Shown here: positions 36,691 to 43,820 of the stretch, piece by piece | Position numbering within the stretch: the stretch's first letter is position 1 | Layout of the letters: every line of letters starts with the position of its first letter | Assembly (NCBI RefSeq): GCF_027497195.1 | Contig: NZ_CP114905.1 | Location: 4,289,001-4,353,000 of the forward strand | Source: Streptomyces sp. WMMC500 | Lineage (GTDB): Bacteria > Actinomycetota > Actinomycetes > Streptomycetales > Streptomycetaceae | Direction: 5' to 3' | Length of the DNA: 64,000 nt | Program-made: the position numbers and the translations under genes | The notes under the pieces: model-generated | What the model was told of the DNA's origin: nothing | Database searches by the model: none | Seen by the model: the letters and a program-made list of their open reading frames with translations, nothing else

Positions 36691-38115
36691 TCACGAGGCC
36701 GGCCGGGCGAGACAGCCCGCGCTGTCCCGGGCCGCGCAGGTGCCCAGGGAACACCAGCGGCGGCGGCCCGGGGCGTCGAGGAACAGCCAGCCGCAGTCGG
36801 GCGACGGGCACGCGGTCACGGTGAAGCGCTGCGGGTCGGCGAGCAGGTCGGCGGCGCTGCGGGCCACCGCGAGCACCGGCAGCCGCAGGCCGGTCGAGGC
36901 GGGCAGCCGCCAGCGGCCCAGGCCGTCCTCGTCGCGTACGAACTCGGCCGCCCGGGCGGCGGCTTCGGCGGCACGCGCGACCTGCCTGAACGCGCGCCGG
37001 TCGGCCGGGGCGACGAAGCAGGCGTGCATCGCGCTCCGCAGTTCGCGGGCCTCCGCGAGCGCCTCCCGGGCGGCGGCGGGCCGCTGTTGCGCCTGCTTGA
37101 GGAGCTGGGTGACCAGCCAGTCCTCCAGCAGGCCGAGGTGGCCGGCCCACACCGCCAGCGCCCGGTAGCCGGTCAGCCACTCCGCGCCGCTCTCGCGGGC
37201 GCCGTCCCAGCCCGCGAAGGTGTTGCAGAACTCCAGGGCCGGCTGGCCGCTGGTGTGCAGCGGCAGCCGTACGTCCCGGACCTGCACGGCGTACGCGGGC
37301 AGCGGCGGATCGTCGAGCGCGGGGTCGGCGGCGAGCACCCTGTCGTGGACGTCGCGCAGGGCCGGGCCGGGGGCGACGCCCAACTCGGCGGCCAGGGCGA
37401 GGCGGGTGGTGCGGTAGACGTCGAGGGCCTCGGCCTGCCGGCCGGCGCGGTACAGCGCGGTCATCAGCGCCGCCACGAGCCGCTCGCGCAGGGGGTGGCG
37501 GGCGACGAGGGGGCGGAGTTCGGCGGCGAGCGTGCCGCCGTCGGCGGGTACGTGACCGGGGGCGCGGGGGTGGAGGTGGAGGTCGCGGGGGTGGCCGTCG
37601 CGGCCGGTGCGCAGCCGGTCCTCGGCGCGCTGCTCCAGGGCGCAGAGCCGCAGTTCGGCCAGCTCCCCGCCGAGCCGGGCGCGCAGTTCGCCGTCCGCGA
37701 GCCCGTCGAGGAGTTCCCCACGCCACAGGGCCAGCGCCTCCTCCGTACGGTGCAGCCGCTCCACGGGGTCGCGCAACGCGGCGGCGGCCCGGGCCCGTTC
37801 GGCGAACTCGGCGGCGTCCGTCCGCCACCCGCCCAGCTCGGCGGTGTACCCGTCGCCGCGGGTGATAATCCCTACCCCGTACGGCCGGAGCGCCATCCGC
37901 AGCCGGCTGATGTAAGTGTGCAGGGTGCCGCGGCCCCCGCCGCCGTCCCCGCCGCCGTCCCACAGCAGCTCCGCCAGCCGGCCGGCGGCCACCGTACGCC
38001 CCGGGCTCAGCAGCAGCACCGCGAGCAGCAGCCGCTCCTGGCGCCGCCGGCTCAGCGAGACGGGGGCGCCGTCGCGTACCGCCTCGAAGGGACCGAGCAG
38101 GCGGAACTCCAACAC
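36691..38115 (-). CDS. SARP regulator fused to a CGNR zinc-finger region
   Basis: Residues 1-95 form an OmpR-type winged helix (LEFRLLGPFEAVRDG, TLHTYISRLRMALRPYG), and 100-255 a BTAD domain, together a SARP-type activator. From about 300 onward the protein continues with LPLHTSGQPALEFCNTFAGW and a C-terminal cysteine cluster CPSPDCGWLFLD...RRWCSLGTC, the arrangement of ABATE/CGNR proteins, although the CGNR tetrad reads CAAR here. The 474-residue start is GTG 38115. The two halves are normally separate proteins. It is divergent from the secreted-protein gene, a possible target. Confidence 0.85.
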   Translation of the reverse strand: MLEFRLLGPFEAVRDGAPVSLSRRRQERLLLAVLLLSPGRTVAAGRLAELLWDGGGDGGGGRGTLHTYISRLRMALRPYGVGIITRGDGYTAELGGWRTDAAEFAERARAAAALRDPVERLHRTEEALALWRGELLDGLADGELRARLGGELAELRLCALEQRAEDRLRTGRDGHPRDLHLHPRAPGHVPADGGTLAAELRPLVARHPLRERLVAALMTALYRAGRQAEALDVYRTTRLALAAELGVAPGPALRDVHDRVLAADPALDDPPLPAYAVQVRDVRLPLHTSGQPALEFCNTFAGWDGARESGAEWLTGYRALAVWAGHLGLLEDWLVTQLLKQAQQRPAAAREALAEARELRSAMHACFVAPADRRAFRQVARAAEAAARAAEFVRDEDGLGRWRLPASTGLRLPVLAVARSAADLLADPQRFTVTACPSPDCGWLFLDAPGRRRWCSLGTCAARDSAGCLARPAS

Positions 38116-38222
38116 AGGGGCAGCGTACGCCCGTCGCGACGAGCGGGTGGTGAGCCGGTGGTCAGCCGGGCAGACCAGGCTCGGGGACGAGCACGCGACC
38201 CGATCCGAAGGAGCACACAGCC

Positions 38223-38753
38223 ATGCGCCGTTATGCAGCAGCCACCGCCGCGGCACTCTGCCTGGCCGCCACCGTCGCCGCCCCGGCGGCGGCGTCGGCC
38301 CGGGGCGGCGACGGGGCCGACGGGGGCTGGCGCCCCGTCACGTACCCCCCGGTGAACTACCCCGCCGGCGAACGCTGCGCCTTCCCCTTCCGCACGGAAC
38401 CCCTCCTCGACGAGGTCATGGTCAAGACGGTCGACACCTACCCCGACGGCTCCCCGAAGACGGAGCTGTACAAGGGGGCCCTCATCGTCCGCGTCACCAA
38501 CCTCGACACGGGCGCCGCGTACGACGCGGACGCGGGCGGCAGCTCGCTCGTCCGGTACGCCCCGGACGGCGGGCACGTCTACTACGCCACCGGCCCGTTC
38601 CTCATCGGCTTCGCGGAGGGACAGGGGAACCTGCCGCGCGGCGAGTACGTGGTCGACGGCGTGTACACGGTAGAGATCACCGCGGCCGACCGGCGGACGG
38701 TGCAGTGGGCGGGAGAGAAGAAGCTGACCGACGTCTGCGACCAGATCGACTGA
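38223..38753 (+). CDS. Secreted protein of unknown function
   Basis: The 176-residue product has a clear signal peptide (RRYAAATAAALCLAATVAAPAAASA) and a small beta-rich mature part with two cysteines (GERCAFPF and DVCDQID at the extreme C-terminus). It starts at ATG after GAAGGAG. It is divergent from the SARP-CGNR gene. A second copy of its last 15-18 codons sits 840 bp downstream, beyond the toxin-antitoxin pair. Confidence 0.82.
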   Translation: MRRYAAATAAALCLAATVAAPAAASARGGDGADGGWRPVTYPPVNYPAGERCAFPFRTEPLLDEVMVKTVDTYPDGSPKTELYKGALIVRVTNLDTGAAYDADAGGSSLVRYAPDGGHVYYATGPFLIGFAEGQGNLPRGEYVVDGVYTVEITAADRRTVQWAGEKKLTDVCDQID

Positions 38754-38824: not shown

Positions 38825-39112
38825 CTAAAGGGCGCGGTACACGTCGCGACGATCACCGACGGCGACGACCCAGACGACGAGTGCGCCGTTGTCGACCGTG
38901 TACACGACCCGGCAATGGCCGACGCGCAGTCGGGACATGCCGTCTTGGCCGGTCAGAGGCTTGATGTCGAAGGCCGAGGTGTCGCCCTTGTCCATCGCGC
39001 GCTGAAACTCCCCGAGACGGATGAGGATCCTGCGCGCCTCGGGAAGGGGGACGGCCCGCATCTGGCGCTGGGCGGCGGGGGTGAACCTCGTGACGTAGAC
39101 GCCGTCGGTCAT
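38825..39112 (-). CDS. RelE/ParE-family toxin
   Basis: The 95-residue protein has the RelE fold sequence: VTRFTPAAQRQMRAVP, IKPLTGQDGMSRLRVGHCRVVYTVDNG and VVAVGDRRDVYRAL, with the basic residues typical of ribosome-dependent mRNA interferases. It follows the antitoxin gene with a 4-nt overlap. The ending RDVY.AL is standard for the family. Confidence 0.9.
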   Translation of the reverse strand: MTDGVYVTRFTPAAQRQMRAVPLPEARRILIRLGEFQRAMDKGDTSAFDIKPLTGQDGMSRLRVGHCRVVYTVDNGALVVWVVAVGDRRDVYRAL

Positions 39113-39396
39113 GCCTGGGCGGTCTCCCCCACAATCTCAGCGGCGAGATCTTCCAGCGTGACGGCGGGCTCACGCCCCTCGGCCAGGGAGTCTGCGGCCA
39201 ACCGGGAGAGCCAGGCATCCTCGATGCGCTCCTCAAGCTTCGTGAGGCGCTCGTACTCGTCCAGGTCGAGAAGCACGGCCTCGGCCTTGCCACGCCGGGT
39301 GATGATGGTGGGGGTGGCTTCGCGGCGGGCACGATCGATGCTGTCGGCCAGGTGGGCCCGCACCTCGGCCATGGCTTCGACGATGGGCTCATTCAT
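39109..39396 (-). CDS. Phd/YefM-family antitoxin
   Basis: The 95-residue protein starts MNEPIVEAMAEVRAHLADSIDRA, then PTIITRRGKAEAVLLDLDEYERL, the DNA-binding N-domain of Phd/YefM antitoxins; the acidic C-terminus should wrap the toxin. The ATG at 39396 is chosen; a longer opening from 39420 would translate the operator. It precedes the toxin with overlapping codons. Confidence 0.9.
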   Translation of the reverse strand: MNEPIVEAMAEVRAHLADSIDRARREATPTIITRRGKAEAVLLDLDEYERLTKLEERIEDAWLSRLAADSLAEGREPAVTLEDLAAEIVGETAQA

Positions 39397-39404
39397 GCAA
39401 CCAG

Positions 39405-39423
39405 TGTACCAGATGTACATCTG
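39405..39423. promoter_or_regulatory. YefM-type operator with TGTACA core
   Basis: CAGATGTACATCTG (39410-39423) is a perfect 14-bp palindrome containing TGTACA, the core known from the E. coli yefM-yoeB operator, with a second near-copy TGTACC at 39405. It lies 9-27 nt before the antitoxin start, where the antitoxin/toxin complex would repress its own promoter. Confidence 0.7.
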
Positions 39424-40420: not shown

Positions 40421-41686
40421 TCAGCGGGGGCGGCGGTCTGGGTCCTCCGCCCGGAGGCGGTGCTGGGCGACGGTCAGCAGTTCGCGCAGGTGCTCCCGGA
40501 GGGGGTTCGCCGCGGTGAGCGCTGTCAGCTCCGCCGCGGCCTCCGCGTAACGGCCCGTTTCGAGGTCCAGTGCGACGCGCCGCTCCAGCAGCGTCTGCCG
40601 CCACTCCGACAGCCGCGTACGGTGCCGCTCGGCGTACAGTCCGGGCACACCGGCGAGCGGCTCGCCGCTGAACTCCGCCAGGGCGGCGGCGTACAGCGCC
40701 CGGCCTCCTTCCGCGTCCCCCTCGGCGACGGCGGTCTCGGCGGCCGACGCCGCCGCTTCCGCCCTGGCGAGGTCCACGTCGGTGTCCCGGATCCGGAGCG
40801 TGTACCGGCCGTGCTTGTTGACGAACACTTCGTCGCCGAGGCACTTGCGCAGCCGGTGGGCGTACGTACGCACGGCGGCCTCCGCCCGTGCAGGCGGGTC
40901 CTCGTCCCAGATGGCGGCGGTCAGCTCCTGCGCGGTGGCGGCGTGGTCACCGCGTAGCAGCAGCATGGCGAGCAGTGCGCGCTGCCGGGGCGAGCCGGTC
41001 GGCAGCACCCCTTCCCCGCGCCGGGCGCCGACCGGCCCGAGCACCGAGAAGCGGAGGGCGTCGGCATCCTCCGGCGCGGGTGCCTCGGCCGATTCATGGG
41101 CCGCCCGCAGGTTCCGGGAGCGTGCCGCCACCGACTCCACCAGGGCGCGCGCGTCGGCGCGCCGCCGCTCCGGGCCGAGCAGCGCGGCCGCCTCGTACTC
41201 CGCACCGGCGAAGGCGCGCAGGGTGGCGAGGGCCTGGGGGTGGGTCGCGCCGAGGGTGGCCGAGGTCTTCTGCGCCGCCAGGGCGAGCACGTCGACCGCC
41301 CGTTCCATCCGGTCGCGGTCGCGGGCGGCCGTCGCCGCCGCGAACTCGGCCGACGCGAGCGCCACCAGCGCGGAGCCCGACGTCGGGTGGTCCTCGCCGA
41401 GGAGATCCACCACGCGCCGCGCGAGAGTTTCGAGTTCGCCGAGCAGCCGGTCCGCCACCCGGTCCCGGTGGCCCCGGCGGGCCACCTCGGCGAGGACCGA
41501 CACCGCCGACAACTCCAGGTCCAGGCGGTCGTCCTCGGGTCCCCGTCCCGATCGGAGAAGCGATCGGGCCACGGTCGCCTGCCTGGCGGCTTCCCCGGCA
41601 TCGCCCGACCGCAGTTCACGGACCGCGCGGCCCACGGCTGTCCGGGCGAGGACGAGGGGGTGCTGTCCCTGCCTGGCGTCGTTCAA
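40421..41686 (-). CDS. Regulator with TPR-like front and C-terminal winged helix plus BTAD
   Basis: Residues 1-200 are helical TPR-like repeats (AARQATVARSLL, HPTSGSALVALASAEFAAA, HPQALATLRAFAGAEYEAAALL). From about 210 an OmpR-type winged helix follows (RFSVLGPVGARRGEGVLP, AAVRTYAHRLRKCLGDE), then a shortened BTAD domain (ALYAAALAEFSGEPLAGVPG, LREHLRELL). SARPs normally have the DNA-binding part first, so the order is inverted. The ATG overlaps the protease stop by 4 nt, so it is part of the protease operon. Confidence 0.87.
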   Translation of the reverse strand: MNDARQGQHPLVLARTAVGRAVRELRSGDAGEAARQATVARSLLRSGRGPEDDRLDLELSAVSVLAEVARRGHRDRVADRLLGELETLARRVVDLLGEDHPTSGSALVALASAEFAAATAARDRDRMERAVDVLALAAQKTSATLGATHPQALATLRAFAGAEYEAAALLGPERRRADARALVESVAARSRNLRAAHESAEAPAPEDADALRFSVLGPVGARRGEGVLPTGSPRQRALLAMLLLRGDHAATAQELTAAIWDEDPPARAEAAVRTYAHRLRKCLGDEVFVNKHGRYTLRIRDTDVDLARAEAAASAAETAVAEGDAEGGRALYAAALAEFSGEPLAGVPGLYAERHRTRLSEWRQTLLERRVALDLETGRYAEAAAELTALTAANPLREHLRELLTVAQHRLRAEDPDRRPR

Positions 41687-42480
41687 CCGTCGTCACCTCC
41701 CGCGAAGTCGCGGCTGATGGCCTGCTGGGCGACCATGAACCTGAGTTCCGCGATCTGCGTGGCGTCCATGTACCCCTGATCCGACCACTGCTGCAAGCGG
41801 TCGAACCACGCCTGGGCCTTCTCGTCCGGCCGCTTCACCTCCCGGGCGCCTTCGCGCGGGCGCAGCACGTCGATGAGGTGCGAGACCTGGAGGTGGTCGA
41901 AGCGGGTGATGGCCTCGGCGATGGTGGCCGCGTACAGCACGTTCCCCGCCCGCTTCTCGTCGGCACGGTCCGGTGCCTGCTCCAGAAGGATGCCCACGAC
42001 CGCCGGGTCGTGCCCCTCCGCGGGAGACCCTTCCACCGGGCCGCCCGAGTACCCGGAGTAGTCACCCAGGATCTGGTCCACGGACAGTTGCAGCGCCTCG
42101 ATCGAGCCGCCACCCGCACACGGGTACCCGTCCGCCGCATGGTGCACCGTCCCGCTGAGCCTCGCTTCTGCAGGTGACGGGCGGTACGGGCCGCGCCAGT
42201 GCCAGCCGGGGAGGGCGTGACCGGCGTTGGGGATGCGCGGGGAGAGCCGGTGGTGGGCGGCGATCTCGATGAGGGCCAGGTCGGCGTCCCGGTCCTGTCT
42301 GCACAACCGGCCGTCCAGGCGCTCGCCGTCTGCCAGGACGATCTCCACCGCGCCGTCGTCCGGCGCGAGTTCGCGCAGGCAGTGCAGGGCGGTCAGCACG
42401 TAGCGCCGGGTGAGGAGGAACCCCCCGCCCAGCCGCCTGTGCGCCTGGTACAGATCCACCCAGTACCCGGCGTCCGTCAC
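41683..42480 (-). CDS. Intracellular trypsin-like serine protease
   Basis: The 265-residue protein has a chymotrypsin-fold catalytic triad: His in RYVLTALHC, Asp in DADLALIEI and Ser in GYSGGPV. It lacks a signal peptide, so it acts in the cytosol, unlike most trypsin-like enzymes. The last 70 residues (from about 195) are helical and resemble the effector-associated adaptor regions of conflict proteases. GTG at 42480 overlaps the upstream small-protein stop. The neighbours on both sides overlap by 4 nt. Confidence 0.9.
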   Translation of the reverse strand: MTDAGYWVDLYQAHRRLGGGFLLTRRYVLTALHCLRELAPDDGAVEIVLADGERLDGRLCRQDRDADLALIEIAAHHRLSPRIPNAGHALPGWHWRGPYRPSPAEARLSGTVHHAADGYPCAGGGSIEALQLSVDQILGDYSGYSGGPVEGSPAEGHDPAVVGILLEQAPDRADEKRAGNVLYAATIAEAITRFDHLQVSHLIDVLRPREGAREVKRPDEKAQAWFDRLQQWSDQGYMDATQIAELRFMVAQQAISRDFAGGDDG

Positions 42481-42806
42481 GGCGTCTCCGGGACCCGCTC
42501 GATGGTCAGGGTCACCGCAAAGGAGGCTTCTGCCGACGCCTTGGAGAGCACCACACCCGCCTCCGCGGCGAGCGTCAGCCCGAAGCTGACCTCCATGGTC
42601 GACACCCGCCACCCGTCCCGGGCGGGCGCCTCGGCCAGCGACCGCTGGGCGATCGCGGACGCCTGGACGATCGCCGCCTCGATCTCTGGGCCGCGGTCCT
42701 CCAGGGCCGCGGTCGTGCGGCTCCGTGTGCCGATCTGACGGCCGCCGCCCGCACCGGCGTCGAGGTCCACCGTCTCCACTCTGACCCGGGAGGTCGAGCC
42801 CGCCAC
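42477..42806 (-). CDS. Trypsin-co-occurring (CU044_2847/Trypco1-like) protein
   Basis: The 109-residue protein carries RTTAALEDRGPEIEAAIVQ and the closing blocks VSTMEVSFGLTLAAEAGVVLSKA and SAEASFAVTLTI. I recognise these as the Trypco1 (CU044_2847) family, found beside trypsin-like proteases. GTG 42806 follows GAGGGG; an ATG further upstream would translate a palindromic operator. Its role is unknown; regulation or substrate delivery for the protease is the common proposal. Confidence 0.85.
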   Translation of the reverse strand: MAGSTSRVRVETVDLDAGAGGGRQIGTRSRTTAALEDRGPEIEAAIVQASAIAQRSLAEAPARDGWRVSTMEVSFGLTLAAEAGVVLSKASAEASFAVTLTIERVPETP

Positions 42807-42847: not shown

Positions 42848-42928
42848 GCATGTCACCCCTGGCACAGCCGCGCCCCCTCCAGCGCGCTCCCGCCGCGGCG
42901 AAGAGGCCCGGTGCCGGGGTGGAGGGCG

Positions 42929-43143
42929 GTATCGGGGTGGCCCCGGGCGGCGAGTGGCCCGGCGACGGGGTCGCCCGGTGTCGGGGTGGGCGGTCGTGCG
43001 TGCGGGGCCGCGGCGACGGGGGGTTGGAGCATTGGCCCCCCGGGGGGCAGGCGGCCCGGTTCCCCGGAGACGCCGGCCTCCGGGCCTGGCCGGCGATATG
43101 ACGGAGCGGGCCGCGATGCGCCCCCGTATCCCGCCCGCACCGA
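42929..43143. repeat. Long inverted repeat, left arm
   Basis: About 215 bp that match, in reverse complement, the arm at 43583-43796. Long identical runs include GCGGCGACGGGGGGTTGGAG, CAGGCGGCCCGGTTCCCC and CTGGCCGGCGATATGACGG. No gene with good coding character covers it. Together with the other arm it fills the otherwise gene-free kilobase upstream of the protease operon. Confidence 0.85.
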
Positions 43144-43206
43144 GGGCGTTCAGGCAGCGCACACAGCCCCGGCGCAGCAAGGAGCCCGCCACGTGCGCGT
43201 CTTCGG

Positions 43207-43513: not shown

Positions 43514-43582
43514 GTTTCTCTCCCCGGGGAGCGGCGAGCCGCAGGCGGGCGGGCGCCGCGGGACGCAAGTACCCCGGGGCCA

Positions 43583-43796
43583 TCGGTGCGGGCGGGATAC
43601 GAGGGCGCATCGCCGCCCGCGCCGTCATATCGCCGGCCAGGCCCGGAGTCCGGCACCCTGGGGAACCGGGCCGCCTGCCCCGGGGGGCCCAATGCTCCAA
43701 CCCCCCGTCGCCGCAGTCCCCACGCACGACCACACACCCCGACACCGCCCCCACCCCGGCACCGGGCCAGCCGACGACAGGGGCCACCCCGACGCA
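43583..43796. repeat. Long inverted repeat, right arm
   Basis: This is the reverse-complement partner of 42929-43143, with a 439-bp spacer between the arms. Small insertions and about 15 percent mismatches show that it is old or under some freedom to drift. The outer end lies 25 bp before the stop of the convergent GNAT gene. Confidence 0.85.
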
Positions 43797-43820
43797 GACC
43801 CCCCGTCCACACGCCCTGCC

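Follow-up and report, generated by a model that had tools for sequence, protein, structure and literature searches.

A protease operon in Streptomyces sp. WMMC500 belongs to a modular three-gene system with exchangeable, host-like modules

The operon at 40421-42806 of a 64,000-nucleotide stretch of the Streptomyces sp. WMMC500 genome (contig NZ_CP114905.1, positions 4,289,001 to 4,353,000; hereafter the window) is, as comparison with its relatives shows, one representative of a modular system of three genes: the small protein Trypco1, a trypsin-fold serine protease, and a third protein in which a constant TPR domain carries an exchangeable module. By sequence similarity, the modules have been copied from host proteins (AfsR, ribosomal protein S1, NsdA-family, LacI, RR-ANTAR and HAD proteins) or from signalling enzymes (CHAT, kinase). 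Our tentative reading is an immune-like conflict system, akin to the VMAP and EACC1 systems of Kaur et al. 2020, with the module serving as bait by imitating a protein of the host that invaders attack. A more specific version is put forward with greater reserve: integrated-decoy immunity, in which the TPR carrier would repeatedly capture near-complete host regulators or translation proteins and be wired to a Trypco1-controlled executioner protease.

All three genes lie on the minus strand. Trypco1 (42477-42806; 109 aa, GTG start) matches PF19493 with 51.5 bits (cut-off 24.6); the protease (41683-42480; 265 aa, GTG start) combines a catalytic triad with a C-terminal extension; and the third gene (40421-41686; 421 aa, TTG start) encodes the TPR carrier with a shortened AfsR module. 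Open reading frame (ORF) coordinates place 4-nt overlaps at both junctions (42477-42480 and 41683-41686), which upholds the tightly packed three-gene unit described in an earlier note on this DNA. A promoter and terminator scan found none.

This arrangement recurs well outside the window. Among 42 named loci collected with a protease profile, Trypco1 lies directly upstream of the protease in 39 (it is missing at L065, L070 and L094), and in 41, according to the profile, the gene directly downstream begins with one and the same TPR domain of about 320 residues. At the remaining locus, L091, the TPR domain was found in the carrier's other open frame, giving 42/42, a count that includes a fragment at L088 and two partial pieces at L092. 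This linkage is far above chance, so the absence of conserved linkage that the earlier note named as a refutation is not what is found. The third gene overlaps the protease by 4 nt at 30 of the 42 loci, a figure that leans upward since start codons were picked for closeness to such an overlap. No further gene recurs comparably: when 664 ORFs, chosen greedily by length, were clustered, with 12 members listed per cluster (operon genes and ORFs antisense to them set aside), the next cluster touched at most six of the 42 loci, in scattered places.

The distribution of the system is patchy. The protease was found in at least 15 of 392 Streptomyces genomes, the window's own included, and at nine loci in eight other Streptomyces genomes the carrier directly follows it, while a phylum-wide scan with the TPR profile recovered at least one of 396 genomes, the window's own; both scans scored three to six candidates per genome, so these counts are lower bounds. 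Named loci also occur in Actinomadura, Catellatospora, Saccharothrix, Actinoplanes and other genera.

Behind the TPR domain, the third genes differ widely. AfsR modules with an NB-ARC domain were the largest class (13/42; eight by Pfam, five by similarity, with L077 running off its contig), and NB-ARC was seen among third genes only where an AfsR module is carried. The module at L057 scored 1553.7 bits against an AfsR equivalog cut-off of 1430, and 1280 bits with AfsR itself. Three loci carry SARP-only modules (L053, L055, L065), one SARP is cut by a contig end (L072), and the L078 module joins a SARP to sigma-70 region 4. CHAT modules are found at four loci and HAD modules at three. Two are ribosomal protein S1 modules (688 and 622 bits with the 30S ribosomal protein S1 model, cut-off 691), and one of the two, at L080, passes another S1 model (423.5 versus 368 bits). 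Two modules are NsdA-family, L066 with 430 bits against a cut-off of 75 and L062 being 88% identical to it; their labelling as CHAT-like was ruled out, as they show no similarity to CHAT proteins. Single cases are RR-ANTAR, LacI and a kinase plus TPR, and the rest comprise TPR only (4/42), a piece of about 90 residues (2/42; L064, weakly like SCO2524, and L067), modules without a class (2/42; L076, L091) and cut or fragmentary modules (2/42; L084, L088).

Some modules may have lost their catalytic activity. Reading by eye against what we take to be the CHAT and HAD catalytic motifs, the CHAT His motif is lost in three of four modules, and among the three HAD modules the nucleophile is lost in one and the motif-IV Asp in another. 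A pattern count had also suggested P-loop loss in five AfsR modules, which alignment overturned: GK[ST] aligns in 12/13 captured modules and 35/35 resident copies (Fisher p 0.27), and the odd one, L077, contains GVGGVGKT, so that its gap looks like an alignment artefact. By eye, P0011 (Streptomyces sp. N2-109) carries two successive SARP modules ahead of its NB-ARC.

In the window, the third protein begins with a TPR-like domain of eight helices in the AlphaFold2 (AF2) model (residues 10-199; 41090-41659), followed by a short linker (residues 199-206; 41069-41092) with a predicted local distance difference test score (pLDDT) below 50, an AfsR-type winged helix (residues 211-297; 40796-41056; Pfam, AfsR alignment and AF2 model) and a truncated BTAD (40454-40777) covering profile positions 1-109 of 146. 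The model has a mean pLDDT of 90.8 and a predicted TM score of 0.53, its winged helix and BTAD helices run to residue 414, and the linker is a possible hinge or cleavage region. The earlier note had described an inverted SARP with its DNA-binding domain at the back, but such a new domain order is ruled out: Pfam places Trans_reg_C (31.4 bits, residues 232-286) ahead of BTAD (64 bits, 304-411), as is normal for SARPs, and the module is collinear with AfsR (PDB 8hvr, 192 bits), with 57% identity over 201 columns to the AfsR structure 8k60 in a structure comparison. What is unusual is that the DNA-binding domain is not N-terminal, the TPR domain standing before it, and that everything beyond about residue 226 of AfsR is absent; the protein accordingly scores 244.6 bits with the AfsR equivalog model, against the cut-off of 1430. 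The same note had allowed that orthologues might have the normal SARP order and that this gene was simply misannotated. The order is indeed normal, but misannotation as the origin of the odd architecture is ruled out, since TPR-SARP fusions recur in other species.

The window's carrier is short. Five orthologues of 506-529 aa, 63-68% identical to it, share its plan with a longer N-terminus, where some 85-110 of their residues have no counterpart in the window protein; it matches positions 118-319 only of the TPR profile, about the first third of which is missing. Four of these five orthologues apparently lie on the same contig as a protease match, which suggests the same linkage. The SARP-only form with a truncated BTAD occurs in five other sequences (P0005-P0009).

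Eight of 12 published AfsR DNA-contact residues (PMC10936776) are kept in the window module (S46, W74, P79, R87, T88, R92, R94 and K95, among them the base-specific contacts T88 and R92), while Q48, S80, Q81 and S91 are changed. Among the other SARP modules that are short or cut, R92 persists in 11/11, T88 in 7/11 and R87 in 2/11. The window module lacks the AfsR helices bearing R240, L243, D245, E246, L247, V249, D250, R252 and L263, a region whose residues contact sigma region 4 and the alpha-CTD in AfsR (PMC10936776), and it is likewise without NB-ARC, the sensor TPRs and most of the BTAD surfaces that engage RNA polymerase. It may therefore bind DNA, but is unlikely to activate transcription as AfsR does. 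Single changes at AfsR E246, L247 or V249 had no obvious effect according to the same paper (PMC10936776), which argues against too strong a reading, although losing the whole stretch is a larger change.

Between the window and S. aculeolatus, the ratio of nonsynonymous to synonymous substitution rates (dN/dS) is 0.15 for Trypco1, 0.27 for the protease and 0.62 for the third gene, the fastest of the three; five other third-gene pairs give 0.25-0.68. On the protease tree, S. aculeolatus is nearest to the window (81%), followed by L083, an AfsR type with NB-ARC (support 97/99), so the short AfsR form is probably derived from a full one.

The constant partners contrast with these variable modules. 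The catalytic triad H33, D67 and S145 is invariant in all 40 aligned protease rows, in line with the intact triad that the earlier note described, and the N-terminus shows no evident signal peptide by eye, in keeping with its description of a cytosolic protease. Pfam assigns the protein to Trypsin_2 (30.8 bits, cut-off 27.6), with Trypsin matching too. Its serine motif is GYSGGP instead of GDSGGP, and six positions ahead of S145 stands an invariant glycine, G139, rather than the Asp189-type residue associated with Lys/Arg specificity; in what we take to be the corresponding chymotrypsin numbering, the protease has neither Asp194 nor Asp189. "Trypsin-like" thus describes its fold, not a Lys/Arg specificity, and control by a partner seems likelier than classical zymogen cutting. 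PADLOC gave weak matches only (Avs1b, 8e-8; LmuA, 5e-6; RT-Protease_XI, 0.008).

Trypco1 was modelled with a mean pLDDT of 75.6, with a helix at residues 35-58 and long beta strands at 66-80 and 91-104. Residues 66-104 (42495-42611) form two long Ala/Gly-rich alternating strands that are strongly conserved in the family. A fold search of the PDB at a threshold of E 0.001 came back empty, the best E value being 0.7, and a role as pore former is unsupported, since beta-pore toxins match only from E about 0.85. The window's own genome holds three more Trypco1 matches (L001, L002 and L003), with a GxSGGP-pattern ORF near L002 and L003.

Resident counterparts of the modules point to a host origin. 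For each of six module types searched, a second copy exists elsewhere in the same genome (62-88% identical). Of the copies compared, the one in the same genome is closest for the HAD module (70%) and for the RR-ANTAR module (88%, against 67-85% in four other genomes). AfsR modules are 62-85% identical to resident AfsR over the SARP part in 12/13 genomes, and for 7/12 captured copies the resident AfsR ranks first or second of 38, with resident rows L032-L052 assigned by score and frame length, not synteny. The L093 genome (Streptomyces sp. AP-93) has no second AfsR match at E 1e-60 besides the operon module, for which a gap in the assembly or a true replacement are candidate reasons, and the S. 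aculeolatus L053 genome has three AfsR-like genes (L121, L134, L136) within about 10 kb of one contig.

Furthermore, capture seems to have happened more than once. A single clade of the 13 AfsR modules was rejected by the approximately unbiased test (p-AU 1.7e-4 with 28 other rows, 4.2e-5 with 38) on quick trees that contain long branches; the modules are thus polyphyletic relative to resident AfsR, which implies repeated capture or conversion. Swaps are also visible among close relatives. Over residues 1-340, P0176 (a CHAT type from an assembly named S. lasiicapitis) matches the NsdA-family type L062 of S. lasiicapitis CGMCC 4.7349 with 87% identity, and nothing beyond the TPR domain matches at E 1e-5, indicating a module swap between assemblies. 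On the protease tree, four AfsR types form a clade of six rows together with a LacI and an unclassed module (support 100/98, inner fork 97/93). Modules are clustered on this tree rather than freely shuffled: nine changes were counted over 35 rows, against a minimum of eight and a shuffled mean of 17.2, after L092, L094, L080, L086, L084, L088, L072 and L070 were left out for long branches, contig cuts or fragments. A second tree, with 40 labelled rows, gave 17 changes (12 merged). Both counts understate swaps, since L062 and L066 were still labelled CHAT-like in both trees.

If the module is a bait, it would resemble the host protein that an invader attacks. Binding or alteration of the bait would be relayed by the TPR domain to the protease, which Trypco1 would until then hold inactive, or help to assemble, and the freed protease would act on Trypco1 and/or cellular proteins so that the infected compartment is stopped. 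The window copy would be a shortened AfsR bait. A bait is favoured over an executor as the role of the module because the protease triad is kept in all aligned rows while the modules are variable, host-like and sometimes dead; a phage T4 protein that binds ribosomal protein S1 is known, to go by the title of one report (PMC9409239).

Several observations weigh against the bait, however. The own-genome copy is not the nearest one for the S1 module (77%; 75-78% in other genomes) or the LacI module (69%; 70% in two others), the NsdA-family module is equally close to its own copy and to one in another genome (73% each), and for 5/12 captured AfsRs the resident protein ranks 4, 16, 24, 27 and 31 of 38. 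Viral contigs yielded 32 pattern matches, none of them a relative; plasmids yielded no match; and we know of no phage protein targeting AfsR. R87, T88, R92 and R94 are kept in 13/13 NB-ARC-bearing AfsR modules, the P-loop appears to be retained as described above, and kinase and receiver motifs of modules look intact. Many modules may therefore be active, which would suit effector release as well.

Release of an active module is, in fact, nearly as likely as a bait, though itself still doubtful. A triggered protease would sever the module from the TPR domain of the carrier, and the freed copy of a host regulator (AfsR, NsdA-family, LacI, sigma or S1) would reprogramme expression or act as a dominant negative, for example in antibiotic switching. 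The modelled linker between two well-folded parts in the window is consistent with this, as are the DNA contacts kept in the NB-ARC-bearing AfsR modules and the window, and the fact that, by our own count, 24/42 modules are gene-expression regulators or S1. Precedents in the literature include trypsin-like proteases that cleave and activate a partner nuclease (PMC12799240), the need for peptidase activity in LypABC (PMC13236601) and the release that Kaur et al. infer for VMAP and EACC1 systems (PMC7159879). Yet freeing an extra copy of a resident protein does not itself account for its being acquired again and again, a number of modules are truncated or dead, and the stretch just after the TPR domain shows no conservation in the carrier alignment. 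This reading is the closest to that of the earlier note, which had proposed a circuit of sensing, cleavage and transcription, with the protease cutting or releasing the regulator. A conserved protease unit with a DNA-binding third component does exist, and its cleavage is still a live alternative, but a dedicated circuit of this kind misfits the wider family: the same TPR carrier bears S1, HAD, CHAT, kinase, LacI or NsdA-family modules elsewhere, which makes the SARP one cargo among several that can be exchanged.

Alternatively, the window could hold an ordinary endogenous operon without any conflict role, its protease sensing stress or development and thereby controlling secondary metabolism through a SARP regulator. 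AfsR activates antibiotic biosynthesis (PMC10936776), and the 4-nt overlaps suggest tight co-expression; this explanation is nonetheless improbable given the patchy presence, the unrelated interchangeable modules (S1, HAD, CHAT and kinase among them), the module swap between assemblies of one species and the fast-evolving third gene. It is similarly unlikely that the window copy is a decaying remnant that kept its protease and Trypco1 while its third gene, having lost N-terminal TPRs, NB-ARC and C-terminal TPRs, no longer works. The in-frame loss near the N-terminus, the truncated BTAD and the elevated dN/dS of the third gene would fit such decay, whereas that ratio remains below 1, the frame is open, the model folds with high confidence and the truncated SARP-only form is common to P0005-P0009.

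The surroundings of the operon include an imperfect inverted repeat upstream, between it and a GNAT gene (42905-43147 / 43579-43803), whose best arms are 76 nt, 93% complementary and 431 nt apart, with more arms outside. About 1 kb past the operon end lies a ParE-type toxin and Phd/YefM antitoxin pair (38825-39420, minus strand), and 36691-38256 (minus strand) encodes a second BTAD protein with a winged helix-turn-helix in front, then ABATE and a CGNR zinc finger.

Among the literature matches listed, no title or abstract start describes a Trypco1-protease-TPR-carrier system, supplements being outside the search, and the words BTAD and SARP are absent from the main text of PMC7159879. That study (Kaur et al. 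2020) named Trypco1 and Trypco2, placed Trypco1 beside trypsin-like peptidases in VMAP (MoxR-vWA) ternary systems, and traced the variable modules of these to cellular subsystems, with decoys among the suggested roles (PMC7159879). The pairing of Trypco1 with a trypsin-like peptidase is shared by the operons examined here, and so are variable C-terminal modules, which in VMAP systems include S1-like, HTH, HAD, kinase, caspase and TPR domains (PMC7159879). The carrier here is, in contrast, a TPR protein, and its modules include near full-length host proteins, AfsR above all. Clustering found no MoxR-, vWA- or VMAP-like recurrent neighbour in flanks of up to 10 kb, with no profile for these run and some loci ending near the operon; this tells against a VMAP ternary arrangement. 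Nearest in plan is the EACC1 two-gene system, which likewise combines a peptidase with a constant small gene at the 5' end and offers as many as 50 different C-terminal domains; it differs in that EACC1 has a transmembrane helix and a caspase is fused to the variable module (PMC7159879), whereas Trypco1 here accompanies a separate trypsin-fold protease.

Other likenesses concern single parts. The window module and 13 others are copies of AfsR (SARP-NB-ARC-TPR; PDB 8hvr, 8jke, 8k60; PMC10936776) with contacts largely kept; they are distinguished by belonging to a protease operon and by being fused to a TPR carrier. Compact operons with a trypsin-like protease also occur as nuclease-protease pairs in Hachiman/AVAST (PMC12799240) and in LypABC CARD-NLR systems (PMC13236601), but the Trypco1-protease-TPR operons have no constant nuclease, CARD or NLR ATPase. 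On either reading of the module, Trypco1, a domain named in 2020 and mentioned by name in two papers of the library searched, gains a minimal three-gene setting. If the module is an effector, the protease would deploy host regulators, AfsR for one, in interchangeable copies; if it is a bait, the captured proteins would reveal which host components Streptomyces phages and other invaders attack, AfsR first. The integrated decoys of plant NLRs are host-protein copies that are fused to an immune scaffold and have been repeatedly acquired. They follow the same plan of a captured host copy with different proteins, and should the proposed bait role prove true, the operon described here would be a bacterial counterpart to them.

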